NCBI RefSeq assembly: GCF_000346505.1
Contig: NZ_ANOH01000090.1
Coordinates: forward strand, 1-32,892
Reading direction: 5' to 3'
From: Aporhodopirellula sallentina SM41
Lineage (GTDB): Bacteria; Planctomycetota; Planctomycetia; Pirellulales; Pirellulaceae
Length of the DNA stretch: 32,892 nucleotides
Part shown: in pieces, positions 16,363 to 28,723 of the stretch
Position numbering within the stretch: the stretch's first letter is position 1
Layout of the letters: every line of letters begins with the position of its first letter
Translations under genes and position numbers: made by a program
The notes under the pieces: model-generated
Database searches by the model: none
The model's input: the letters and a program-made list of their open reading frames with translations, nothing else
What the model was told of the DNA's origin: nothing

Positions 16363-16745
16363 GGGTTGTTGGAACGGTGTGAATAACGCGTTCGCTCTCA
16401 AAACGCTGAACGTTCCTTCTTTATTAACACGGCTAATACAACGGTTCACGCAACGCATCCGTATTCTCTTTCGTGATGCCAGCGAACACTTGTTCCTCGT
16501 TGCTCAATTCTGATGCAACGGATGCCTGTCGTTCGTGCAACCGATCGCGGCGAGTAGAAATGTTCGCATGCACATTTGGTTGCCCCCACGCGTCAACGCG
16601 TAAGATGCGCCTCCTCCTCACTGTCGACATAACCGTCGCAAACCACTCGGCATCGTGAATCCATCCGCCCCAAAGTGTGCGTGAGTATCCGATGCGCGTC
16701 GCCGACGCACACCAGCACACTTTTTGGAATGCGTTGTGCTTTTCC

Positions 16746-16834: not shown

Positions 16835-18862
16835 ATGCTTCTGTCCCCCCAAAGCACGACAGCCCCCCAAAGCATGACAGCAACGCCCGCTGACAATGCG
16901 ACGGCGACACGACTGGTGGTCATTGGAGGAGGCATGGCGGCGCACGGCTTTTGTCGACGGATGGTCGACTCGCCTGCTCGTCCGGACTATGCATTGACGG
17001 TCTTTGGGGAAGAACCTCGCCCCGCCTATGACCGCGTGAACCTGTCCTCTCTGCTGAGCGGACGCGATGAGTCGGACCTGCTGCTCTCACCACGAGAATG
17101 GTACGAACAAAATAACATCGAACTCCACACCGGTCGCCGCATCACCGGCCTGGATTTGGCCAATCGCGTGATCACGGATCAACATGGTCATGTAGAACAT
17201 TATGATCAGCTCGTTCTAGCCACCGGCTCTTACCCCTGGGTCCCACCGATCGGCGGAGCGGACTCGCCGGGCGTGTTCGTTTACCGAACGATCGACGACC
17301 TCGATGCGATTCGCAAATACGTCGAATCCCACGGTGCTCGGTCCTCCGCGGTGATCGGTGGCGGACTTCTCGGGCTCGAAGCGGCGAAGGTGATCAAAGA
17401 CCTCGGACTGTCGACGACGATTCTCGAGGTCGCGCCCGGATTGATGCCGCGGCAACTCGACGCCCAAGCCGCCAAAGTCCTTCGAGAGCAGGTCGAGTCA
17501 CTCGGCGTCGATGTCCACGTGACCCGCCGGACCAAGAGCATCGCGCAAGACGGCGAGCAATTGCGACTCGATTTCGAGAACGCCGATCCACTCCGCGTCG
17601 ACATCGTGCTCGTTGCCGCCGGAATACGCCCGCGTGACGAACTCGCCCGTCAGGCGGGACTGAAACTCGGACCACGCGGCGGCATCGCCGTCAATCGGCA
17701 TCTCGAGACGAGTGATCCCAACGTGTTCGCGATCGGCGAATGTGCCTCGGTCGACGGGCATATCCACGGACTGGTCGCACCTTGTTACCGGATGGCGGAT
17801 GTCCTCGCGGCGAGACTTTCGAAACAGTCCGCTGAATTTATCGACAACGAAGAAGCCGTCGAGCTGAAATTGCTAGGTGTCCCCGTTATCACTCTCGGAC
17901 GTGCGATCGGGGAATCGACTTCGGGGGTCGTCGTGACTCACGCGGGCGAAGACAGCTATCGCAAACTGATTCTCGAACAGGGACGCGTCGTGGGCGCCGC
18001 GTCGGTTGGCGAATGGGAAGACGTCAACCTGATCCGCATGTCCGTCGCTCAGCACAAACGTTTGTGGCCGATGCAGCGGATACGCTTTCTCAAAACGGGC
18101 ACACCGTTCGCCGGTGGTGCCGGGCTGCCCATCCATCAATGGCCGGGCAACGCCACCGTGTGTTCGTGCATGAATGTCTCTCGAGCACAACTCGGCGCCG
18201 CAATCAGCGAGGGTTGCCGAACCGCTGCCGAACTATCACTCAGCACCGGAGCCGGAACGGCCTGTGGCACCTGTCGCAATTTGCTGTGCGAATTGGTCGG
18301 CCAAGGTCCGGAGAAGGTTCAAACACGCGGCAGCAACGTGGTCTTGGTCGCGTCGATCGTCGCTGCGATTCTGGCTGCCGCAATCGCGTTCCTACCGCCG
18401 ATCCCGATGGCAACCAGCGTTCAGGATAGCTGGCGAGAAATCGACGCTTTTTGGCGAGACGGTTTTACCAAACAGGTCACCGGGTTCAGCCTGCTGTTTG
18501 TGATGTTGCTGGCACTAACGTTTTCGCTGCGAAAGCGGGTCAAGTTCGTTCGCTTTGGCGACTACGGATGGTGGCGGGCCGCACACGCGACGATCGGCAC
18601 GGCGATGGTGTTGGGCCTGATCGTGCACACCGGAATCCGCATGGGCAGCAACCTCAACTTCGCCCTCAGTTCCACGTTCCTGGCATTGTCGTTCGTCGGC
18701 GGCTTGGCCGGCTTGGCGTCCTCGCTCGAAACCAAACTGACCGGCGACTCGGCCATGTTCGTCAGGGCATGGCGTCCCAAACTCACGTGGCTGCACATTG
18801 CCCTTTTCGTTCCGCTGCCCGCTCTGCTGGCTGGCCACATTCTGAGCGTCTACTGGTACTGA
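16835..18862 (+). CDS. NirB-like NAD(P)H/FAD reductase fused to BFD [2Fe-2S] and a bis-haem-type membrane domain
   Basis: This 675-residue protein has three parts. Residues about 25-410 are a pyridine nucleotide-disulfide oxidoreductase of the NirB type. VVIGGGMAA (near 28-36) binds FAD, VIGGGLLGLEAA (near 174-184) binds NAD(P)H, and FAIGECA plus GLVAPCYRMADVLA close the FAD site. Residues about 441-490 are a BFD-like [2Fe-2S] domain with CSC (Cys443, Cys445) and CGTC (Cys477, Cys480). Residues about 500-675 have four or five hydrophobic helices; two carry paired histidines spaced H-x13-H (His584/His598 and His654/His668), the spacing used to hold two stacked b-haems. The sirohaem domain of nitrite reductase is absent. 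The likely role is carrying electrons from cytoplasmic NAD(P)H across the membrane. An alternative start at 16874 lies in a tandem duplication. The next gene begins one base after the stop. Function is inferred. Confidence 0.9.
   Translation: MLLSPQSTTAPQSMTATPADNATATRLVVIGGGMAAHGFCRRMVDSPARPDYALTVFGEEPRPAYDRVNLSSLLSGRDESDLLLSPREWYEQNNIELHTGRRITGLDLANRVITDQHGHVEHYDQLVLATGSYPWVPPIGGADSPGVFVYRTIDDLDAIRKYVESHGARSSAVIGGGLLGLEAAKVIKDLGLSTTILEVAPGLMPRQLDAQAAKVLREQVESLGVDVHVTRRTKSIAQDGEQLRLDFENADPLRVDIVLVAAGIRPRDELARQAGLKLGPRGGIAVNRHLETSDPNVFAIGECASVDGHIHGLVAPCYRMADVLAARLSKQSAEFIDNEEAVELKLLGVPVITLGRAIGESTSGVVVTHAGEDSYRKLILEQGRVVGAASVGEWEDVNLIRMSVAQHKRLWPMQRIRFLKTGTPFAGGAGLPIHQWPGNATVCSCMNVSRAQLGAAISEGCRTAAELSLSTGAGTACGTCRNLLCELVGQGPEKVQTRGSNVVLVASIVAAILAAAIAFLPPIPMATSVQDSWREIDAFWRDGFTKQVTGFSLLFVMLLALTFSLRKRVKFVRFGDYGWWRAAHATIGTAMVLGLIVHTGIRMGSNLNFALSSTFLALSFVGGLAGLASSLETKLTGDSAMFVRAWRPKLTWLHIALFVPLPALLAGHILSVYWY
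16845..16880 (+). repeat. 18-base tandem duplication at the start of the redox gene
   Basis: CCCCCCAAAGCACGACAG (16845-16862) is followed directly by CCCCCCAAAGCATGACAG (16863-16880). The single difference turns ACG into ATG at 16874, creating a second potential start codon, in frame, that would remove the first 13 residues. Confidence 0.85.
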
Positions 18863-18863
18863 A

Positions 18864-20300
18864 ATGAAAGGAGCGAAAAGATTGTGGCTTTGGTTCATCG
18901 GCGTCAATGTGGCATTGGTCGGGGTCATTCTGTACTCCGCAATGGCACCGGGTGCATTGACCAAAACGATGCTGCTGCCGGGCGAAACCAGCCATGGGCA
19001 CTACCAAATCGAAATGCGCTGCGACGTCTGCCACACCGAGGGCAATGGCATCCGCGAGGACGCCTGTTTGGATTGTCATGCCGAGGAACTGCGGCTCGCC
19101 AAAGACACTCATCCATCGAGCAAGTTCAACGACCCGGTCAATGCGGAAATGCTCGCAACGCTCGACGCACAGAGTTGTTTGACATGTCACCGCGAACACG
19201 TCCAAGAGCAAACGCTCGAGATGGGGCTCACGATGCCGTCTGATTATTGCTACCACTGCCACCAGGAAACGCTGGAATCCCGCCCCAGTCACGCAAACTT
19301 CGCGTTCGACTCCTGTGCAACGGCTGGTTGTCACAACTACCACGATAACCGAGCCCTGTACGAGAACTTCCTCAACAAACACGCCAGCGAAGAAGACTTC
19401 CTGGCCGAAATGGTGGGACTCGTCCGCCCGGAGAAAACACCGGTTTTTACCGCACCGAATAAAAACACCGCCGGCCTAGCTGCCGAGAACACAGCCGATA
19501 TCAGTGCCGAAATTACTGCCGACGCACCGGAAACTTTCCCGAGCGATCCAGTGATCCTCGAAGAGTGGGCGTCAACGGCACATGCCGCCGCGGGCGTCAA
19601 CTGCAGCGACTGTCACGCTCCTCTGACCGTTTCGGATACGAGCACTCCTAACCAACCCAGCGAAACGGAACCGACGTGGGACGCCGCGGTCTCGCACGAG
19701 ACCTGCGGCCGTTGTCACGAACAACAGCTCGAAACATTCCTGCAGGGACACCACGGGATGCGATTGGCGCAGGACCTTTCGCCGATGACGCCGGCTCAGG
19801 CACGCCTTCCGATGCACGTCGACGCCGCCCATCGCGAACTCGATTGCAACGCCTGCCATACCGGCCATCGTTTTGACACGACGTTCGCATCGGTCGACGC
19901 ATGCTTGACGTGCCACAACGACGATCACAGCAACGCGTTTCTACAAACCAGCCATTTCCAAGCATGGCAATCCGAACTCGCCGGCGACTCACCCCAAGGT
20001 AGCGGAGTCACCTGTGCGACCTGCCACATGCCACGGCTCGAAGACGACGACGGTGAAGTTTGGGTCCAACACAACCAAAACGCGAACCTCCGTCCTAACG
20101 AAAAAATGATCCGAGAGGTCTGCATGCATTGCCATGGCCTTGCGTTTTCAATCGATGCCCTCGCCGACCGAGAACTGATCCGACAATGCTTCGGATCGAG
20201 TCCCTCGAAACATGTCGAAAGCGTCGACCTCGCCCAATCCTGGTTCGAAGAAAAGGAACGTCAAAAGGAGGCTCGAAGAAAGAAACGACAGTCCAAATAA
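18864..20300 (+). CDS. Membrane-anchored multihaem cytochrome c with 11 haem-binding sites
   Basis: This 478-residue protein begins with one transmembrane helix (about residues 7-27) that anchors it facing the periplasm. It contains ten CxxCH sites, with first Cys at 53, 68, 105, 129, 247, 281, 328, 347, 384 and 420. One unusual CX4CH site, CATAGCH (Cys151), brings the total to 11 potential covalent haems. Five haems lie in the N-terminal half (NrfH/NapC-like or class III-like spacing). An Ala/Thr/Glu-rich linker spans about 190-235, and six more haems lie in the C-terminal half. The C-terminus is strongly basic. Its ATG is one base after the stop of the FAD/BFD/haem-b gene, which implies translational coupling and a shared pathway. 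It probably accepts electrons from the membrane haems and passes them to a periplasmic acceptor. Whether it is a terminal reductase is not clear. Confidence 0.92.
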   Translation: MKGAKRLWLWFIGVNVALVGVILYSAMAPGALTKTMLLPGETSHGHYQIEMRCDVCHTEGNGIREDACLDCHAEELRLAKDTHPSSKFNDPVNAEMLATLDAQSCLTCHREHVQEQTLEMGLTMPSDYCYHCHQETLESRPSHANFAFDSCATAGCHNYHDNRALYENFLNKHASEEDFLAEMVGLVRPEKTPVFTAPNKNTAGLAAENTADISAEITADAPETFPSDPVILEEWASTAHAAAGVNCSDCHAPLTVSDTSTPNQPSETEPTWDAAVSHETCGRCHEQQLETFLQGHHGMRLAQDLSPMTPAQARLPMHVDAAHRELDCNACHTGHRFDTTFASVDACLTCHNDDHSNAFLQTSHFQAWQSELAGDSPQGSGVTCATCHMPRLEDDDGEVWVQHNQNANLRPNEKMIREVCMHCHGLAFSIDALADRELIRQCFGSSPSKHVESVDLAQSWFEEKERQKEARRKKRQSK

Positions 20301-20351
20301 CCCACCCATTTTTCATCCCGCGTTCGAACGCCTGATTGCCCGGTACCCAAT

Positions 20352-20405
20352 CACTCAGTGACCCAAAAATCAATCACTCAGTGCCCCAGTCCCGAACACT
20401 CAGTG
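20352..20405. promoter_or_regulatory. Three CACTCAGTG dyads, operator candidate
   Basis: CACTCAGTG occurs at 20352-20360, 20375-20383 and 20397-20405. Each is a 4-base inverted repeat around a central C, and copies start 23 and 22 bases apart, close to two helical turns, so bound proteins would sit on one face. They lie between the cytochrome gene and the DUF3365-globin pair, ending 45 bases before the ATG at 20451. This suggests separate regulation of that pair. Confidence 0.55.
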
Positions 20406-20450
20406 CAATCGCAAACGTTTGACCCAAGCATATCGTTAAAGGAATTCATC

Positions 20451-21083
20451 ATGACTTTCAGTCGTAAAACTACCCTCTCCGCGCTCGCCCTTTCGAGTGT
20501 GTTTTGTCTCGTCGCCGCAACATTCATGGGATGCGGCGGCGGAGCCACAGCCTCCGTTTCACCGCCTCCTCCGTCGGAACCCGGCATCCCCTACAAAAAG
20601 TTTGCGGACGCCGTGCACGCGGTGATGATGGCCGACCGAACCGTCTACGCGTCCAAGGTCGTGACCCGGCTCAAGAAACAGGACGCCCCTGTTGAGCCGA
20701 GCGAGTACTGGGAAGACGAAGACCACACCATTCCATTGCCGGCCCAAATGTTCCGAATGGGGTCAGAGTTGGTCTTTGAGAATCCCGAGGCCGGATTCAC
20801 TTACGCGTTGAAAAGCAAGTGGCCACTGAACGAACAAAACCGGCCCAAGAGCGAATTCGAAGTCAAAGCACTCGACTACATCGCCGAACACCCTGACGAA
20901 AACTTCTATGGCGAAGAAGAACTCGGCGGCGACAAATACTTCGTCGCTGCCTACGCCGACAAGGCCGTCGCGGAAGCGTGCTGGAGTTGCCATAACGATC
21001 ACGGCAACCGCGAAGACGACTACCCCGAGTTCAAGAAAGACGACGTCATGGGCGGCGTCATCGTCCGAGTTCCGATGCAGTAA
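20451..21083 (+). CDS. DUF3365 (Tll0287-like) monohaem cytochrome, probable lipoprotein
   Basis: The 210-residue product starts at 20451, preceded by AAAGGAA at 20438-20444. A signal peptide ends at FMG|CGGG, so Cys28 may be lipidated, although the lipobox is not ideal. A short Pro/Ser linker follows, then a DUF3365-type domain (about residues 48-210). Near its end is CWSCHND with one CxxCH haem site (Cys177, Cys180, His181), followed by a VMGGVIVRVP strand typical of the family. DUF3365 proteins are small periplasmic or sensor haem c domains; their substrates are mostly unknown. The gene sits 51 bases before the globin and 150 bases after the multihaem cytochrome. The spacer carries three operator-like dyads. 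It may act as an electron shuttle or a redox/NO sensor for the cluster. Confidence 0.85.
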   Translation: MTFSRKTTLSALALSSVFCLVAATFMGCGGGATASVSPPPPSEPGIPYKKFADAVHAVMMADRTVYASKVVTRLKKQDAPVEPSEYWEDEDHTIPLPAQMFRMGSELVFENPEAGFTYALKSKWPLNEQNRPKSEFEVKALDYIAEHPDENFYGEEELGGDKYFVAAYADKAVAEACWSCHNDHGNREDDYPEFKKDDVMGGVIVRVPMQ

Positions 21084-21134
21084 CCACGCACCGCAAACCA
21101 TTCATATCCAACACATCATTTAGGAAACATCACG

Positions 21135-21554
21135 ATGACCCCCGAACAAGTCACGCTCGTCAAAGACAGTTGGGAAAAGGTAAAACCGATTTCTGAAAAG
21201 GCGGCCGAACTCTTCTACGACCGTCTGTTCACTCTCGACCCGAGTCTCAAGTCGCTCTTCAAAGGCGACATGTCCGAGCAGGGCAAAAAGTTGATGGCGA
21301 CCATCTCGCTCGCCGTCGCCTCACTCGATCGGCTCGAAACCATCCTGCCGACCGTTCAGGCACTCGGTAAAAAACATGCCGTCGAGTACGAAGTACCCGA
21401 GTCGAGCTACGCGACGGTGGGTGAAGCGCTGATCTGGACGCTCGGCCAGGGCCTCGGCGACGACTTCACCGACGACGTGAAAGAAGCTTGGCTGCTCACC
21501 TACACGACGCTCTCGGCCGCCATGCTCAGCGGAACGGAAGAAGCAGCCGCCTGA
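21135..21554 (+). CDS. Single-domain bacterial haemoglobin (globin)
   Basis: This 139-residue protein has the full length of a three-over-three globin without a reductase domain. The proximal His is His81 in ALGKKH. Tyr28 in LFYDRLF fits the B10 position and Phe42 fits CD1. Gln49 is a candidate for distal E7. A B10 Tyr with an E7 Gln is the pattern in flavohaemoglobins and Vitreoscilla-type globins, which handle O2 and NO. GTP-like or sensor domains are absent. It has no signal peptide, so it acts in the cytoplasm. AGGAAA about 8 bases upstream is a fair ribosome binding site. It is last in the redox cluster and probably co-transcribed with the DUF3365 gene, which argues for a nitrogen-oxide or oxygen-linked role. 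Its reductase could be the FAD protein of the cluster, but this is speculation. Confidence 0.9.
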   Translation: MTPEQVTLVKDSWEKVKPISEKAAELFYDRLFTLDPSLKSLFKGDMSEQGKKLMATISLAVASLDRLETILPTVQALGKKHAVEYEVPESSYATVGEALIWTLGQGLGDDFTDDVKEAWLLTYTTLSAAMLSGTEEAAA

Positions 21555-21571: not shown

Positions 21572-21677
21572 GTAGGCCGGATGAAGGAGAAACGTAGGCC
21601 GGATGAAGGAGGCTTCGCGACGCCCATCCGGCAGAACGGATCAACGCCGGAACGTCGCTGCGCTAGGTCCGGCCTAC
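21572..21677. repeat. Inverted-repeat element with duplicated left end
   Basis: The left end GTAGGCCGGA occurs twice (21572 and 21594). The right end TCCGGCCTAC (21668-21677) is its exact reverse complement. The whole could fold into a long hairpin of about 85-105 bases behind the globin gene and may serve as a terminator or a small mobile repeat. Confidence 0.65.
21646..21677. repeat. 32-base direct repeat, copy 1
   Basis: The unit begins GCCGGAACGTCGCTGCGCTA and continues to 21677. It recurs with one change (TAC to TGC near the end) at 21816-21847. Confidence 0.8.
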
Positions 21678-21712
21678 AAAGACGATCCAACAATCACGCA
21701 GACAAATTAGCC

Positions 21713-21754
21713 GATGTGTGTTAGCACCGGTTCGATGTGTGTTAGCACCGGTTC
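21713..21754. repeat. Perfect 21-base tandem repeat (two units)
   Basis: The unit begins GATGTGTGTTAGCACCGG and ends TTC. It occurs at 21713-21733 and again, without change, at 21734-21754. Confidence 0.9.
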
Positions 21755-21815
21755 CTCGCCCCAACCGCGGCCAACGCCGACCGGCTGATGCGTTTGGAAC
21801 GCTACCGGTGGGACT

Positions 21816-21847
21816 GCCGGAACGTCGCTGCGCTAGGTCCGGCCTGC
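21816..21847. repeat. 32-base direct repeat, copy 2
   Basis: This is a near-identical copy of 21646-21677 that ends 15 bases before the stop of the DUF6580 gene. The two copies flank the 21-base tandem repeat, so the segment may have been duplicated or inserted as a unit. Confidence 0.8.
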
Positions 21848-22613: not shown

Positions 22614-22835
22614 TTAGCTATCATCTTGCCCGCACGACGCAGACAAGACGGATTCAAAGCGTCTTCGTTGCACGCAATTCAAAATGGAACGTTTTTCGTC
22701 CGTCGATGCAATCGACCAACGTCCAATTTCATTGAGTGTTCGAAAGCAACCACGACAGATCTGTTGATCATCGACCTGGCAAATTCCAGTGCACGGCGAT
22801 CGTGGGATCGAAAATGTACCGTTCGAACGCGTCAT
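22614..22835 (-). CDS. DUF1289 family small cysteine-rich protein
   Basis: The 73-residue product matches the DUF1289 pattern: PCTGICQVDD, then CRGCFRTLNEIGRWS and a basic ILNCVQRRR end. Cys15 and Cys19 with Cys28 and Cys31 form CX3C and CX2C pairs that could bind a metal or iron-sulfur centre. The function of DUF1289 is not known. Its ATG overlaps the stop of the giant upstream gene in an ATGA arrangement (22832-22835), so translation of the two is probably coupled. It is short but the family signature is clear, and there is no signal peptide, so it is cytoplasmic. Its place between a surface protein and a membrane protein is unexplained. Confidence 0.85.
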   Translation of the reverse strand: MTRSNGTFSIPRSPCTGICQVDDQQICRGCFRTLNEIGRWSIASTDEKRSILNCVQRRRFESVLSASCGQDDS

Positions 22836-25800
22836 CGTCGTAGCTCCGATTGTAGGGAGTCTGACGTTGATAACAATTCGAGTTCGCTCATCGCGACGTC
22901 AACCGAGACGGGGTCGATACGATTTGCCGCAGCGTCCAACCCGATCTCGACGGCTTCCACGCCGTCACCTGAGTTTTCGTTCGACACTGCCTCAATGCTC
23001 AGCGTGTTCAAGGAAACCGGTGCATCCGCGATCCGCTCTGCATCCCGTATCCATTTATCGTTCGATTCGACTTCTTCCGCCGGCGTGACGACAGGCGATC
23101 CAGCCATCGACTCGGCCGCCAACAGATCAACCGATGGCTCGGACGATGGTGCACCGCCGTCATTCTCGTTCAACCAATTGATTACTTGCAACGCATCGAG
23201 CGCCGTCACCAACCCGTCGCCGGAAACGTCGTAGTAGACTCCCGTCAGGTCATCGGTCGATTGCGGATCAGGCAATTCAAACGAAGGGTCCGCGTTGAGA
23301 CGATTGATGATCACCAGAGCGTCCGTCGCGGTGACACCGCCACTCGCGTTGACGTCCTGGGCGAGCACAAAGTTTCGCCACGCCTCGTCGGTCGCGACCT
23401 GCACACTGACGTCACCCGAAGTCACCGCTGCGGACAATTTGCCATCGACCATTGTCATTTCACCCAACCGCCAATCACCGGTCCAGCGAAGCGTTTGACC
23501 GGTCGTGGAAACGATCAGGGGAAGCGTTCCACCGTTCACCTGCGACAACTCATCGAGATCCAAATCGAACGTCAACGGATCACCGGCGTCGGCAACATCA
23601 GACGTGCCCAAGACAACCGTTTCAAACCCGATCACTCGGTCGTTCAACCACGCCGCCACATCGACGGCTTCGGCTTCATCTAAATCTCCCGGTGCGATCA
23701 CCGCCGTATCAACACCCGCACCGCCGTCGACTTGGTTGAATCCCTTAGTGTGCAACCAAGCCGAGTCGCTGCCCCCGGACATCCTCACGGTGACTGACGC
23801 GGCATCGACCGGGTTCAGCGTGAATTGCTGCGACGCGTTGCTGAACAGCAAATCGATTCCCGAGTCGTCGTCGTATTCATCAATCACCACGTCGAACTCG
23901 GTGCCGACGAGGTGGTTCACACCGTCGTGTTCGAGGGTCAACACCGCTGGCAAATCATCATTAAAGATTTCGATCGTGCCATCCGCGCCGGCGAATCCTT
24001 CCGCACTCGCGGTCACCTGAACAGTCAGATCATCGCCGTACTCCGCGTCATCGCTCAGCACCACGGGGACACGCACACTATCCACACCGGCGGGGATTAC
24101 GATCGAATCAGGAACCGACAAGCGACTAGGCGAACTGGACGCGAGTGTCACTTCCAACGGTTCACTCGTGTCGGCGTCATTGCGATGCACGACCATCGAA
24201 GGAACAGTAGCCGATCGGTCGATCAGCAAGTTATCGATCGCGAAAAAGGCCGGCGTGTTCATTCCAAATTCGCCGACATCGGACGATTCAAACGAGAACT
24301 GCAAACTCGATGCAGCCGACAGAGAACTCAAGTCCACCGTCGTCCAGTCATCAACAATGTAGTCGAGCGAGTCATCTTCGAAACGGTAGTCGGCAAGATA
24401 GAAATCGATTTCGCCAACGGATTCACCGGAGGCATCGAGTCCCTCGATCGTCAACAAGAAGTAATCCGGGTCGGTGCCATCTTCGCCACCGAATTGCTTC
24501 GCAAAGAAGTCGCCATCACGCATCGAAAGCGCTGCGTAGGTTGTGTTCGTGATCGAGATCGATTCGAACGTCGCCCCGGAAACATCATCCGGCATCGCAA
24601 TCGTCAACGGGGACGCGCCATATCCGCCCGCAATCGCAAACGTGTCCGATCCTTCCGCGCCACCTCCCGGTTCGGACGCGTCCACGTTTGCGTAGGCAGA
24701 AAACTGGTTCCCAAACCCGGCGGTCGTGACGTCGGTCACGTTGGACAACGCCCACCCGCTCCAACTGCCCCAGACCGGGTTGTAATCCGTCGGGAAGGCG
24801 AACGATTCCGCCGTGAATCCGCCCATCCCGTCCGAACCGTTGTTGAAACTCTCGGACAACAGCGTCGACCCGATGTCTTCAAAATCGACCAATTGCACAC
24901 CGTCGGCTTCGCTCGCAGTCTCGTCAAACAAAGTCAACGTCAACGTCTCGGTGTCATCCTCGAGAAGCGATACTTCTGCAGCTCCTGACACGAAACCGTC
25001 TGCCATTGCCGTAACGTTCCATTGGCGTTCGCCGTCAATCAACGCGTCAACCAATGCGTTGTCGATCCAGGCCACCGGCACGTCGACACTCGATTCGCCC
25101 TCAGGAATCACGACCGTCATTGGCACGATCAGTTCGTCTCGATCGCTACCTAATTGAACTTCTATCGCCTGCGACGTGTCGGCGGTGTTGCGTGAGATCG
25201 AAATTGTCGGCAGCGTCTCGGCGTTGGGGGTGAGCATGACATTATCAACGGCAAAGTAAGCCGGCGTGTTCATGCCGAACGAACCGTTGTCCGACGAAGA
25301 CAGGCTCATCGACAACACTTCCGCATCGCCGATCGGGCTGACATCCACCGTCATCCACTCATCCACGATGTAGTCGAGGCTGTTGTCATCAAAGCGATAG
25401 TCCGCCAAGTAGAACTCCACCTGACCGATGGAATTGCCGTCGCTGTCGAGGCCGTCAATGGTCAACAAAAGGAAGTCCGCGTCGTCGCCCGTTTCGCCTC
25501 CGAACTTTTTCGCAAACGCATCACCGTCACGCATCGACAATGCGGCGTAGGTTGTGTTGGTGATTTCGATTGACTCAAACGGCTGGTCACCATCGCGCGA
25601 AATCAACGCCGGCGAACCGGCATACGCGACCGCATAAGTCGACGAACCGTTCGCACCCGAACCAGTGATCGCGGAATACTGGTTCCCAAATCCTGGCGTG
25701 GCCGTGTCGTTGGCACGGCTGATCGAGAACCCGGACCAAAAATCAAAACCGAACGAATTGCTAAACGAGTTATTCAACGACACAGGACCGCTGACAAACC

Positions 25801-28621
25801 TCCCACTCGCCCCGGCGTTGTTATCGAACTCGCCATCGACCAAACCACGACCGAGCAACTCGAAGTCGCCGATCGCAATCGCGTCGGCTTCTGACAAACC
25901 GTCTTCTGGCGCGACAACACTCAGGGTCGGTTGATCGGTTTCGCTCACCGTCAGCCCGACCGCTACCGGCGTGACGTTTTGCGCAACCGCAGTAATGCCT
26001 ACCGTCAGTGGACCGGTCACGATTCCGTCACCGATCACCTGCATCGTGTGTGTCACCGAATCGGATCCGATGGGGATCACGACCGTTCCCGCCCCCGACA
26101 CACGGTCGCCGAGCGTCGTAGAGATCGTCACCTCTTGAGCAACATCGAGCGACGCGTTCACGCGCCGCACCAACACCTGGAACGGTTCCGCTTCCGATAC
26201 TTCCGTCAACGGATCGCCCGACAAATCTTGCAGCTCGATCTGCAGGCTCGCCGTATCGTTGTCGACAACGTTGACCTCCACCGACGAGGAAACAAAATTC
26301 TCGTTGCTGGCCAGCACCACGTAGCTCGACATCAGATTGTCGATCGTGTCATCGATCACTTCCACGGTGAACGTCGCTGACGCGTTTCCCGCGGGGATCA
26401 CGACTTCGTTGGGCACCATCAACGGTCCGCCACCGGGCAGCGACAACGAAACGATTACGGCCGATGTCGTGTCGACGGTGTTGCGAGAAACCGTGACCAT
26501 TTGGGTGATCTCCGGCGAGTTTTCACTCAGTTGGAAAGAAACAGGGTCAACCACCAATTTAGGGAAGTCATCTTCGCTGACCGATACCGAAACCTCCGCG
26601 TCTTCGTGCGAGCCCGAGACGGCGTGAATCACACCGGTGCTCCCGCCGCCAAATACTTCATCATCGAGCACTTCGATCGTGACATCCACCTCGCGGACCC
26701 CCGCATCGAACTGAACCGACGTGGGAACACTCAGCACGCCATCGAGATCATGGCTGAGCGTCACCTCCAACGATCCATCTAGGTCGGCATCGTTTCGTCG
26801 AAGAGTAAGCGTTCGTTCGCCTTCGCCCTCGACGGCTTCGAGACTCGCAGTGTCAAACGAAATCGCCAACGTTTCGTCGTCCTCGATGACCAACGACCGT
26901 GTCGTCGGCAACAGGGTCTCGACCGTGGCGGTCACCTCCAGCTCGCGACTGTCCGTCGGCACGTCGTCATTCGTCGGGGAGATTTCAAACTCGACGTACG
27001 CGGCACCGACCGGGATCGTCACTGACTCGGGCAAGGTCGCTTGGTCCGTTCCCGTTCGCTGCAAATTCACGTCCACCGGCGATGACGAATCCTCCGTCGG
27101 GCGAGAAACGCGAGCCGTAACGCTCTCGTCTTCGCTCGTCACATCGGTCTCCAAATCCATCGGCACTGCCGCGCGGAGCAACGTCACGTCATCAACGGCA
27201 AAGAACGCTGGCGTATTCATCCCGTAGGAACCGTTATCGCTCGACGTCATGCTGAACTGCAGCGACCGAGCCTCCGAGAGCGACGAGACATCCACCCGCG
27301 TCCATTTGTCGAGAATCGTATCCTGCGAATTGTCTTCAAAACGATAGTCGCCCAGCATCACGCTGACGTCGCCGACCGGATTGCCCGACGCGTCCACGCC
27401 CGTGATCGTCAACTGAAGGAAGTCAGGCTCGTCGCCGCTGTCACCGCCAAACTTCTTGGCAAACGAATCACCGCTGAGCATCGACAATGCGGTGTAGGTT
27501 GTGTTGGTCACGTACAAAGAATCGAAACGCGACGCACTCGCCGGATCGAGCGTGATCGTCGGAGGAGCCGCAGGCTCGGTCGGGGAAACGTCAAAGAAAC
27601 CGACCGCGAATGTATCCGATCCGTCGTACCCGCCGCCCGTGATGTTGCCGAACTGGTTCCCGAAACCAGCCGTCGCCGCGTCAGTCGATTTCGAAATCGA
27701 CCACCCCGTCCAACTCTGCCACTGCGTGTCGTAGTTGCTATTGAGCGAAATCTCGTCTTCGGCAAAGACGCCTGCGCCACTCGAACCATTGTCCGTGCCC
27801 TCGGCGGGCAGCCCACTGCCGAGCGTTTCAAAATCGACAACCACTTCACCGTACTCGACCTGGTGAATCACACCGATCGCATCGAGATCCAACCCAGCCG
27901 AACCGAACGTCGGCGTTGGGTCATAGATCGGATCGCCATCGGAATCGACCGTCAAACCATCACCAACAATGTCCACCAAACGTACATGAGTCACCGAGGT
28001 GACATCGAGCCCCGCCGTGCCGCGAAGCTCCTCGAGGTCGAACGGTGTTCCGTATCCGCCGCGATACTTTCCGGCCAAGTTATCGATCTGCGTCGGATCC
28101 ACTTCGCCGTAACTCGGCACCGCCGCAGGCGTCAGTGAATCGCTGTCAAAGCGAACAAAGTTCACCCCGTCGGACGAGACTTCGACGAACGCGAGTTCCA
28201 AGAACGTGTCGTTGATCGCGTTTTCGAAAACCGCAAAGTCGGCACCGAGGCCGTCACGGATCGGCGTCGCGAACTCGAGCGTGATCGAACCACCACGGCC
28301 GAGCGACACGACACCGTCGAACTCACCTTCGGCCGGACCGAGCGCGTTGGAGGTGTCCGTCCACTGCGCGTCCACGTCCGATCCCGGTGAGTAGTCGGCA
28401 ACCGCCGAGGCCCATCCGACGATCGCGGAATCCTCAAACGCAATCGCAGTCGATCCGTCTTCTCCTGCGGCCGGTGCGTAGGGTCCCGCCGCGAGCAAAC
28501 GCCGGTCTTCGAGTCCCTGCATCAACAGTCGCCGTTTGAACGGTTGGGTTCGTTGTCGTTTCACGGTTCGTTTGGACGCTCGTTTGGAAGTTCGTTTCAT
28601 TCTCATAGTTGGTTTCATCAT
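22832..28621 (-). CDS. Giant secreted surface protein: LEDRRLLA motif, three DUF4465 domains, Calx-beta-like modules, dockerin
   Basis: I chose the ATG at 28621 (1929 residues); the frame runs to 28702. The basic N-terminus leads to LEDRRLLA (residues 37-44), the planctomycete cell-surface motif used instead of a standard signal peptide. A beta-rich domain follows (about 45-255; VSLGRGGSITLEF, FAVFENAIND, FVEVSSDGV). Three DUF4465 domains lie at about 260-483, 916-1131 and 1242-1468, each with NTTY-ALSM, DYRF-DNS or DDS and FGMNTPA or YGMNTPA. About six Calx-beta-like modules lie between them. A dockerin-like pair of calcium loops (DVNASGGVTATDALVIINRL near 1756, YDVSGDGLVTALDALQVINW near 1797) lies near the end. 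It has few Cys and is strongly acidic. It likely acts at the cell surface as a binding protein. DUF4465 is linked in my recollection to B12 loci; this fits the leader upstream but needs proof. Confidence 0.92.
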   Translation of the reverse strand: MMKPTMRMKRTSKRASKRTVKRQRTQPFKRRLLMQGLEDRRLLAAGPYAPAAGEDGSTAIAFEDSAIVGWASAVADYSPGSDVDAQWTDTSNALGPAEGEFDGVVSLGRGGSITLEFATPIRDGLGADFAVFENAINDTFLELAFVEVSSDGVNFVRFDSDSLTPAAVPSYGEVDPTQIDNLAGKYRGGYGTPFDLEELRGTAGLDVTSVTHVRLVDIVGDGLTVDSDGDPIYDPTPTFGSAGLDLDAIGVIHQVEYGEVVVDFETLGSGLPAEGTDNGSSGAGVFAEDEISLNSNYDTQWQSWTGWSISKSTDAATAGFGNQFGNITGGGYDGSDTFAVGFFDVSPTEPAAPPTITLDPASASRFDSLYVTNTTYTALSMLSGDSFAKKFGGDSGDEPDFLQLTITGVDASGNPVGDVSVMLGDYRFEDNSQDTILDKWTRVDVSSLSEARSLQFSMTSSDNGSYGMNTPAFFAVDDVTLLRAAVPMDLETDVTSEDESVTARVSRPTEDSSSPVDVNLQRTGTDQATLPESVTIPVGAAYVEFEISPTNDDVPTDSRELEVTATVETLLPTTRSLVIEDDETLAISFDTASLEAVEGEGERTLTLRRNDADLDGSLEVTLSHDLDGVLSVPTSVQFDAGVREVDVTIEVLDDEVFGGGSTGVIHAVSGSHEDAEVSVSVSEDDFPKLVVDPVSFQLSENSPEITQMVTVSRNTVDTTSAVIVSLSLPGGGPLMVPNEVVIPAGNASATFTVEVIDDTIDNLMSSYVVLASNENFVSSSVEVNVVDNDTASLQIELQDLSGDPLTEVSEAEPFQVLVRRVNASLDVAQEVTISTTLGDRVSGAGTVVIPIGSDSVTHTMQVIGDGIVTGPLTVGITAVAQNVTPVAVGLTVSETDQPTLSVVAPEDGLSEADAIAIGDFELLGRGLVDGEFDNNAGASGRFVSGPVSLNNSFSNSFGFDFWSGFSISRANDTATPGFGNQYSAITGSGANGSSTYAVAYAGSPALISRDGDQPFESIEITNTTYAALSMRDGDAFAKKFGGETGDDADFLLLTIDGLDSDGNSIGQVEFYLADYRFDDNSLDYIVDEWMTVDVSPIGDAEVLSMSLSSSDNGSFGMNTPAYFAVDNVMLTPNAETLPTISISRNTADTSQAIEVQLGSDRDELIVPMTVVIPEGESSVDVPVAWIDNALVDALIDGERQWNVTAMADGFVSGAAEVSLLEDDTETLTLTLFDETASEADGVQLVDFEDIGSTLLSESFNNGSDGMGGFTAESFAFPTDYNPVWGSWSGWALSNVTDVTTAGFGNQFSAYANVDASEPGGGAEGSDTFAIAGGYGASPLTIAMPDDVSGATFESISITNTTYAALSMRDGDFFAKQFGGEDGTDPDYFLLTIEGLDASGESVGEIDFYLADYRFEDDSLDYIVDDWTTVDLSSLSAASSLQFSFESSDVGEFGMNTPAFFAIDNLLIDRSATVPSMVVHRNDADTSEPLEVTLASSSPSRLSVPDSIVIPAGVDSVRVPVVLSDDAEYGDDLTVQVTASAEGFAGADGTIEIFNDDLPAVLTLEHDGVNHLVGTEFDVVIDEYDDDSGIDLLFSNASQQFTLNPVDAASVTVRMSGGSDSAWLHTKGFNQVDGGAGVDTAVIAPGDLDEAEAVDVAAWLNDRVIGFETVVLGTSDVADAGDPLTFDLDLDELSQVNGGTLPLIVSTTGQTLRWTGDWRLGEMTMVDGKLSAAVTSGDVSVQVATDEAWRNFVLAQDVNASGGVTATDALVIINRLNADPSFELPDPQSTDDLTGVYYDVSGDGLVTALDALQVINWLNENDGGAPSSEPSVDLLAAESMAGSPVVTPAEEVESNDKWIRDAERIADAPVSLNTLSIEAVSNENSGDGVEAVEIGLDAAANRIDPVSVDVAMSELELLSTSDSLQSELRR

Positions 28622-28723
28622 GTTGTTCTTCGAGCTCGTTCGCTCATCCGTCGCGATCACTTGCTTCGCTACACGTATGGGTTGCGTCGGTATTGAATGC
28701 ATATGCTGAAGACTCGGGTCCGT

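Follow-up and report, generated by a model that had tools for sequence, protein, structure and literature searches.

Introduction

The locus analysed here, a four-gene cassette (g1 to g4) in a stretch of 32,892 nucleotides from the planctomycete Aporhodopirellula sallentina SM41 (NZ_ANOH01000090.1; hereafter the window), shares parts with several described systems. NADPH oxidases and ferric reductases carry electrons from NAD(P)H to two stacked transmembrane b-haems, held by H-x13-H pairs on two helices, and the nitrite reductase NrfA, with a catalytic haem that is Lys-ligated (CxxCK) or in some NrfA bound by CxxCH, is partnered by the quinol-oxidising NrfH/NrfCD. The usual picture of bacterial nitrate assimilation comprises uptake, a molybdenum (Mo) reductase and a sirohaem reductase. 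In Bradyrhizobium japonicum the nitrate assimilation operon narK-bjgb-flp-nasC includes a single-domain globin and a flavoprotein reported to serve in defence against nitric oxide (NO) (PMC4724949), while the DUF3365 family, or sCache_heme, is described in PMC12889525 as having stand-alone members that look redox-type and signalling-fused members that bind NO. The undecahaem Uet complex, as far as the available text of PMC10734462 describes it, has different gene company, and it is by description only that it is set apart from the cassette.

The individual parts of the cassette are all members or look-alikes of known families, and there is precedent for the handling of nitrogen oxides during nitrate assimilation; the assembly matches no named system that we found. 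The FAD (flavin adenine dinucleotide)/NAD(P)H head and BFD [2Fe-2S] domain of g1 resemble NirB, but a membrane domain of predicted dihaem-b type replaces the sirohaem/[4Fe-4S] half. That domain recalls the NADPH oxidases and ferric reductases in its H-x13-H pairs on two helices and its two predicted b-haems, whereas the flavoprotein is of the Pyr_redox_2/NirB type with a BFD domain and presumably delivers its electrons to a multihaem protein. Haem modules like those of NrfA and the octahaem nitrite reductases lie in the middle and towards the C terminus of g2, which differs from these enzymes in having 11 sites and no CxxCK and in apparently receiving its electrons from an NAD(P)H flavoprotein; from the DmsE/MtrA decahaem cytochromes, which it matches weakly, it is distinguished by 11 haems, an N-terminal membrane anchor and the lack of an apparent MtrB-type partner. 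As a stand-alone protein with a CxxCH motif g3 resembles sCache_heme and Tll0287, although it has a conserved Met100 in place of any conserved distal Cys and lies inside a cassette. The Bradyrhizobium operon likewise combines nitrate assimilation genes, a single-domain globin and an NAD(P)H flavoprotein, but the portion of its description available to us names no membrane b-haems, multihaem cytochrome or sCache_heme lipoprotein (PMC4724949). A full-text literature search (titles, abstracts and opened papers, with subscription papers mostly outside its scope) found no published description of the cassette; no characterised homologous cluster turned up, in agreement with the first-pass annotation of the window, which knew of no named equivalent. 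That annotation overlooked the nitrate-assimilation setting and the spread beyond planctomycetes. We propose, with a probability of about one in two, that the cassette is a sigma54-controlled accessory module of nitrate assimilation which disposes of NO and/or nitrite by-products.

Results

Gene composition and conservation of the cassette

The cassette lies on the + strand at 16835-21554 of the window. The g1 gene (16835..18862, 675 aa) encodes an NAD(P)H-FAD oxidoreductase of NirB N-terminal type with a BFD [2Fe-2S] domain and a five-helix dihaem-b-type membrane domain; g2 (18864..20300, 478 aa) a membrane-anchored 11-site multihaem cytochrome c; g3 (20451..21083, 210 aa from the ATG at 20451) a stand-alone Tll0287/DUF3365 (sCache_heme) monohaem lipoprotein; and g4 (21135..21554, 139 aa) a single-domain globin. 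Open reading frames together with Pfam and NCBIfam matches confirm this composition, as first described from the letters of the window, including the single base that separates the g1 stop from the g2 start.

Full-length g1 was sought in our genome and 59 relatives and is present in 12 of these 60, and g2 (E 1e-25) in four of 294 genomes sampled from the phylum, the own genome included both times. All 13 same-phylum loci fetched for holding g1 or g2 have the order g1-g2-g3-g4; the synteny across planctomycetes on which the first-pass annotation had made its proposal depend is conserved far beyond this genome. Four genes beside the cassette in the window (gyrA, fliD and the pair that follows the globin) recur next to it only in L035 and L040 among these 13. 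Scanning 84,980 species genomes gave 454 pattern matches, 396 of which are g2 relatives at E 1e-3, and the best 80 were kept. By title these come from Planctomycetota, Verrucomicrobiota, Lentisphaerota, Poribacteria, Dadabacteria, Nitrospirota, Acidobacteria (Bryobacterales) and Myxococcales, as well as from Alpha-, Beta- and Gammaproteobacteria, many being metagenome-assembled.

Searches with tblastn place the g1 membrane domain at most 600 bases upstream of g2 and on the same strand in 80/80 loci, g3 within 3.5 kb of g2 in 79 (6.4 kb in the remaining one) and a g4-type globin within 3.5 kb in 59; these counts are used in place of those from neighbour clustering, which undercounts g3 and g4 because the longest open reading frame was kept. 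The order is g1-g2-g3-g4 in 52 loci, g1-g2-g3 without g4 in 18 and permuted in 10. Pairwise identities correlate between g1 and g2 (r 0.78), g2 and g3 (0.70), g2 and g4 (0.65) and g1 and g3 (0.62). Because order and strand are kept across phyla, the arrangement is, on this comparative evidence, beyond chance, and the cassette is not planctomycete-specific. In the permuted loci (L052, L055, L057, L079, L089, L090, L091, L094, L101 and L120) g3 and/or g4 lie upstream of g1-g2.

Residue conservation was counted on proteins from the 80 loci (72 for g1, 77 for g2, 78 for g3 and 49 for g4) together with the window and L037 and L044-L047. Sequences with internal stops (g2 of L069, L115 and L123; g3 of L067; g4 of L067, L070, L072, L095, L105 and L122) or deviating length (g1 of L067, L079, L095, L097, L099, L102 and L118; g3 of L092; g4 of L109, L110, L125 and L126) were excluded, and the rows include one or two duplicate genomes (L045/L083; L046/L092). 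Alignments A5, A6 and A7 hold 70, 54 and 57 sequences respectively.

Linkage to nitrate assimilation

Neighbouring genes within 10 kb of the 80 loci were clustered and one member of each named cluster was scanned. An NrtA-like binding lipoprotein lies near 22/80 loci, an ABC (ATP-binding cassette) ATPase near 25, NrtB near 18, a NasA-like reductase near eight, Rrf2 near seven, ANTAR near five and a response-regulator cluster near five, while an Alginate_exp barrel is found near 17 and a small monohaem lipoprotein near 10. At least one of NrtA, NrtB, NasA and ANTAR is near 29/80 loci, and near 19 of the 49 loci longer than 20 kb. Against the NCBIfam nitrate models the neighbouring transporter proteins score just below or below cut-off; the closest solved structures for the NrtA-like protein are NrtC-type chains, then CmpC, then NrtA 2g29 and the bicarbonate-binding 2i48. 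In Roseiconus nitratireducens (L063) the genes run NasA, a sirohaem-type reductase whose relatives carry NIR_SIR, a CysJ-like flavoprotein, the barrel and the cassette, with Rrf2 downstream.

Twelve nrt loci were hand-picked from 57 genomes around Alcanivorax, presumably Gammaproteobacteria. The cassette is present in four, flanked by the barrel gene on one side and the ANTAR/second NrtA genes on the other in L156 and L163 (where an antisense open reading frame is listed in the ANTAR place of L163), and after the barrel at the end of the gene run in L162 and L166. The same nrt run minus the cassette is found in L157-L161 and, minus the barrel too, in L164; L167 has the L166-type run minus the cassette, and L165 is arranged differently. 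Among nrt loci of otherwise similar make-up, the cassette is either there as a whole or missing as a whole.

The linkage extends to whole genomes, where phylogeny was handled by genus collapse only. In the 60-genome set NrtA occurs in 12/12 cassette genomes vs 7/48 cassette-free ones (Fisher 3.6e-8; 1.8e-4 with one row per genus), and a NasA-type reductase in 31/60 including 11 of the 12 with the cassette. Searches of 45 genomes behind named cassette loci, hand-picked from the 80 beforehand with no written rule, found NrtA (E 1e-40) in 36, across many phyla, and NasA-type reductases (E 1e-80) in 40, of which the weakest (31-37% identity) possibly comprise other Mo enzymes as well. Of the 57 genomes around Alcanivorax 16 have g2, 33 have NrtA and 14 both, so that NrtA accompanies 14/16 genomes with the cassette vs 19/41 without (p 0.004).

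Sirohaem reductases are usually present as well. The L063-type enzyme occurs in 11/12 cassette genomes among the relatives, and NIR_SIR was matched there at coinciding positions; the remaining one, G030, encodes NIR_SIR in a long frame of NirB type. Around Alcanivorax NirB is above cut-off in 42/57 genomes, including 14/16 with the cassette. This usual coexistence rules out the cassette as a general replacement of the nitrite reductase and suggests that it is accessory to the usual enzyme.

Promoter elements and regulators

The 200 bp upstream of the first cassette gene were scanned for TGGCAYR-N4-TTGCW, which we take to be the sigma54 core consensus, with GG and GC fixed and at most two mismatches. 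Such an element precedes 46/83 cassette loci vs 31/681 control genes (p 1.7e-30, a value that overstates independence because loci inside a phylum are related), and 16/83 vs 16/681 at one mismatch or fewer. The reverse strand gives 2/83, and spacers of 1, 2, 3, 5, 6 and 7 give one to three loci, N4 alone being enriched. By phylum, as assigned from record titles, the element is found in Planctomycetota (25/34), Verrucomicrobiota (7/12), Proteobacteria (11/24), Lentisphaerota (1/2) and loci of unknown phylum (2/3), with none in Poribacteria (0/4), Dadabacteria (0/2), Acidobacteria (0/1) or Nitrospirota (0/1). Control genes were drawn from the named loci, nitrate genes included; six duplicate loci and those at contig ends (five at the 220-base limit for sigma54, nine at the 420-base limit for operators) were left out of the promoter tests, and the near-identical L109/L110, L107/L113 and L058/L061 were counted separately in the sigma54 test. 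The putative −24/−12 element of the window, TGGAATGCGTTGTGCT (GG-N10-GC; 16725..16740, + strand), lies 110 bp ahead of the g1 start and is a pattern match with two mismatches. The upstream DNA of eight genus members has diverged except for the GG-N10-GC element and a few short stretches; L039 has this element, yet is absent from the pattern matches with at most two mismatches.

An exact AAGATGY-N9-RCATCTT palindrome of NsrR type is found upstream in 4/79 loci vs 0/672 controls, namely L036, L037 and L038, of one genus and with the full AAGATGC-N9-GCATCTT, and L090, a verrucomicrobium with an adjoining NsrR-like gene. The full palindrome is absent upstream in the window, which has the half-site AAGATGC (16602..16608, + strand), weak by itself; such half-sites occur in 14/79 loci vs 39/672 controls. 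Among the strings that we presume to represent NorR-, NtrC-, FNR- and NtcA-like operators, the FNR-like (0/79 vs 3/672) and NtcA-like (2/79 vs 19/672) ones are not significantly enriched. Five of six neighbouring Rrf2 proteins match NsrR best and one RirA, all below equivalog cut-offs, and a seventh, from L063, is a weak NsrR match. The NsrR site of Escherichia coli ytfE has the same architecture as the cassette palindromes in the available portion of PMC5320621, and NsrR sites are also treated in that of PMC1274295. A GGCA-N6-TGCC palindrome is enriched upstream (6/79 vs 6/672; L035, L037, L040, L041, L043 and L078).

Judged from gene content and upstream motifs, the setting of the cassette is nitrate assimilation, marked by an NrtA-type ABC transporter, a NasA-type reductase, an ANTAR regulator, sigma54-type elements and a few NsrR-type operators.

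The flavoprotein and membrane domain of g1

In Pfam g1 matches Pyr_redox_2 (3e-54) and Fer2_BFD (9e-9), and DUF4405 below its cut-off. Its match to NirB (TIGR02374; 439.3 bits, below the cut-off of 578.35) covers NirB positions 1-466 only, and the NIR_SIR domain is absent from g1 in the Pfam scan. The BFD-like [2Fe-2S] domain (18155..18295, + strand; residues 441-487) presents cysteines C443, C445, C477 and C480, kept in 78/78 sequences. In the membrane domain (18326..18859, + strand; residues 498-675) H584, H598 and H654 are kept in 78/78 and H668 in 77/78, bearing out the H-x13-H membrane fusion recognised at first reading; H584/H598 and H654/H668 are both H-x13-H pairs, on two helices as in two-b-haem transmembrane reductases. 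An AlphaFold2 model (mean predicted local distance difference test score, pLDDT, 79.6; predicted template modelling score 0.54) has helices at 500-519, 543-565, 577-599, 607-632 and 637-658/660-674. If the FAD head is cytoplasmic, the two helices that carry the histidines should span from inside to outside, with H584/H654 as the inner, cytoplasm-near pair and H598/H668 as the outer, periplasm-near pair. Foldseek with the model returned FAD proteins only among the 50 matches listed of 1572, and the membrane domain has no credible sequence match in the PDB (one at E 0.39); its weak Pfam matches are to DUF4405 (25/54 sequences) and Ni_hydr_CYTB (11/54). We regard it as a predicted dihaem-b domain.

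The eleven-haem cytochrome g2

The g2 protein has an N-terminal membrane anchor and Pfam matches to Cytochrom_c3_2 / C7 / Cytochrom_C552. Eleven haem sites, the number counted in the first-pass annotation, are present in 83/83 aligned sequences, 82 having 10 CxxCH and one CX4CH, as in the window, and one having 11 CxxCH; all 11 motifs end in His and none is CxxCK. Ten non-motif histidines (H46, H112, H143, H160, H240, H297, H335, H355, H364 and H403) are kept in 83/83 and an eleventh, H83, in 82/83, followed by H173 in 79/83. Conserved non-motif histidines thus equal the haems in number, and all haems may be bis-His, or one conserved histidine may serve an active site. Octahaem and pentahaem nitrite reductases can be aligned with stretches of g2, at E 3.9e-11 for the whole profile and 1.7e-5 for the best single stretch. 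Against two NrfA models the window g2 scores 27.8 and 30.9 bits (curated cut-offs 595 and 692.5), and against the DmsE-type TIGR03508 34 bits (cut-off 192.2). Its AlphaFold model is unfit for haem placement because the mean pLDDT is 44.6.

The lipoprotein g3 and the globin g4

Pfam assigns g3 to the Tll0287-like family PF11845 (1.6e-18; 68 bits vs a cut-off of 24.1). Its lipobox cysteine is C28 and its single CxxCH lies at 177-181, the Cys, Cys and His of which are found in 83/84 rows, the remaining row being gapped. The 84-row alignment has no conserved Cys beyond lipobox and CxxCH, hence no Tll0287-like distal Cys ligand; Met100 is conserved in 83/84. No output domain appears in the Pfam scan. 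In a profile search of the PDB Tll0287 was found at E 0.79, ranked under a chance-level match at 0.57.

The globin g4 matches PF00042 (1.1e-14), and Y28, Q49 and H81, presumably Tyr B10, Gln E7 and His F8, are kept in 55/55 sequences including the window. Its closest solved globins, 3s1i (best) and 3ubc, are both named haemoglobin-like flavoprotein and are, we assume, Hell's Gate globin. A flavohaemoglobin-type NCBIfam model is matched below cut-off, and the residue set makes g4 a candidate single-domain globin of NO-dioxygenase type. A truncated globin replaces g4 in L089 (4101-4475; PF01152), L094, L101, L107 and L113, from some Verrucomicrobia and Aliagarivorans, and all five loci also contain the small monohaem lipoprotein cluster.

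Discussion

Since the cassette tends to occur with nitrate-uptake genes, its probable role is to deal with toxic compounds that arise when nitrate is used. From the four co-conserved genes, their cofactor-binding motifs, the linkage to nitrate genes and the sigma54-type elements we infer an electron path and its direction, haem occupancy, partners, regulation and a terminal acceptor. In this scheme g1 would oxidise NAD(P)H in the cytoplasm and pass electrons from FAD through [2Fe-2S] to the inner b-haem (H584/H654) and on to the outer b-haem (H598/H668), which would reduce the periplasmic 11-haem g2; g2, together with the monohaem lipoprotein g3, would hand the electrons to NO or nitrite. Cytoplasmic g4, or the truncated globin in some loci, would serve as an NO dioxygenase that may draw its electrons from the FAD head of g1, and the cassette would work beside the sirohaem reductase, not in its place. 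A continuous path from NAD(P)H through FAD, [2Fe-2S] and two b-haems to c-haems, as first proposed for the window, is plausible by motifs, its direction and haem occupancy being predictions; the accompanying hint of NO or nitrite chemistry holds up, with the terminal acceptor conjectural.

More tentatively, and with somewhat less than even odds, the cassette could represent an unrecognised multi-phylum system in which NAD(P)H directly drives periplasmic NO/nitrite reduction by an 11-haem cytochrome via a NirB-half/dihaem-b fusion, coupled to a globin that scavenges NO in the cytoplasm; it would then serve high-affinity nitrate assimilation as an arm devoted to detoxification or salvage. If so, NAD(P)H-driven periplasmic reduction would be neither of the quinol-linked Nrf type nor of the cytoplasmic NirB/NirA type. 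The cassette looks like an undescribed layer added to nitrate assimilation, in which a transmembrane chain and a globin tend to accompany the NrtA-type transporter from Planctomycetota and Verrucomicrobiota to Gammaproteobacteria. Destruction of NO or nitrite by the cassette would bear on NO leakage in nitrate use, and would provide a function for hundreds of multihaem cytochromes (396 relatives) and some stand-alone DUF3365 proteins.

Several observations weigh against a by-product disposal module. Nitrate genes occur in cassette-free relatives (NrtA 7/48, NasA 20/48), including the same-genus genomes G002, G006, G008 and G010, which have NrtA, NasA and the L063-type reductase, and among the 45 cassette genomes nine have no NrtA match and five no NasA match. 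The g4-type globin is missing in 21/80 loci, of which five hold the truncated globin and two (L060 and L065) end at g3. Exact NsrR-type operators are rare, three of the four coming from one genus and the window having the half-site only, and neither NorR-like GTCA-N3-TGAC (2/79 vs 5/672) nor NtrC-like GCAC-N7-GTGC (3/79 vs 6/672) is significantly enriched. In g2, where no catalytic residue set is apparent, 11 haem motifs with 11 conserved histidines would permit an all-bis-His pure wire, and DmsE-type matches are found in 70/70 members vs 36/70 and 16/70 for the NrfA models, all of them weak.

These last points lead to a reading in which g1-g2-g3 form a non-catalytic, MtrA/DmsE-like wire to another periplasmic or outer-membrane acceptor and the nitrate link is merely regulatory. 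The DmsE-type decahaem model is the commonest NCBIfam match, an Alginate_exp barrel lies near 17/80 loci, and stand-alone sCache_heme proteins are described as redox-type in PMC12889525. Yet the window g2 is far below the DmsE cut-off, and no terminal reductase besides nitrate-type and CysJ-like genes was found among neighbour clusters of at least five loci, which makes such a wire unlikely. It is also doubtful that g2 is an assimilatory, ammonium-forming periplasmic nitrite reductase, fed by NAD(P)H and recapturing nitrite at the Nrt uptake site, despite its alignment to octahaem and pentahaem nitrite reductases, the NrfA model match in 36/70 members and the linkage to NrtA. Among the 57 genomes around Alcanivorax G443 and G447, both with the cassette, are the sole NrtA-positive ones without a NirB match (NirA was not sought), but the sirohaem or NirB-type enzymes of the other cassette genomes leave such a nutritional role little room, and g2 has no CxxCK catalytic haem. 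As some NrfA use CxxCH, the missing CxxCK leaves catalysis by g2 possible.

That g3 and the chain instead form a periplasmic redox/NO sensor, and no metabolic sink, is very improbable. Some DUF3365 domains sense NO where they are joined to signalling modules (PMC12889525), sigma54/NsrR-type signals lie upstream and the response-regulator cluster is near 5/80 loci; g3, however, has no output domain, and the named neighbour clusters of at least five loci, as far as they were scanned, yielded neither a kinase nor a chemoreceptor. Disposal of NO and/or nitrite is the role that we prefer.

Other features of the window

REP-like short repeats directly follow the globin gene, GTAGGCCGGATGAAGGA at 21572 and 21594 (21572-21610) and CGGAACGTCGCTGCGCTAGGTCCGGCCT at 21648 and 21818 (21648-21845). 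Beyond them, on the − strand, a very large repetitive protein of 1956 aa is encoded at 22832-28702; among the 13 same-phylum loci, just L035 and L040 have a relative of it beside the cassette.

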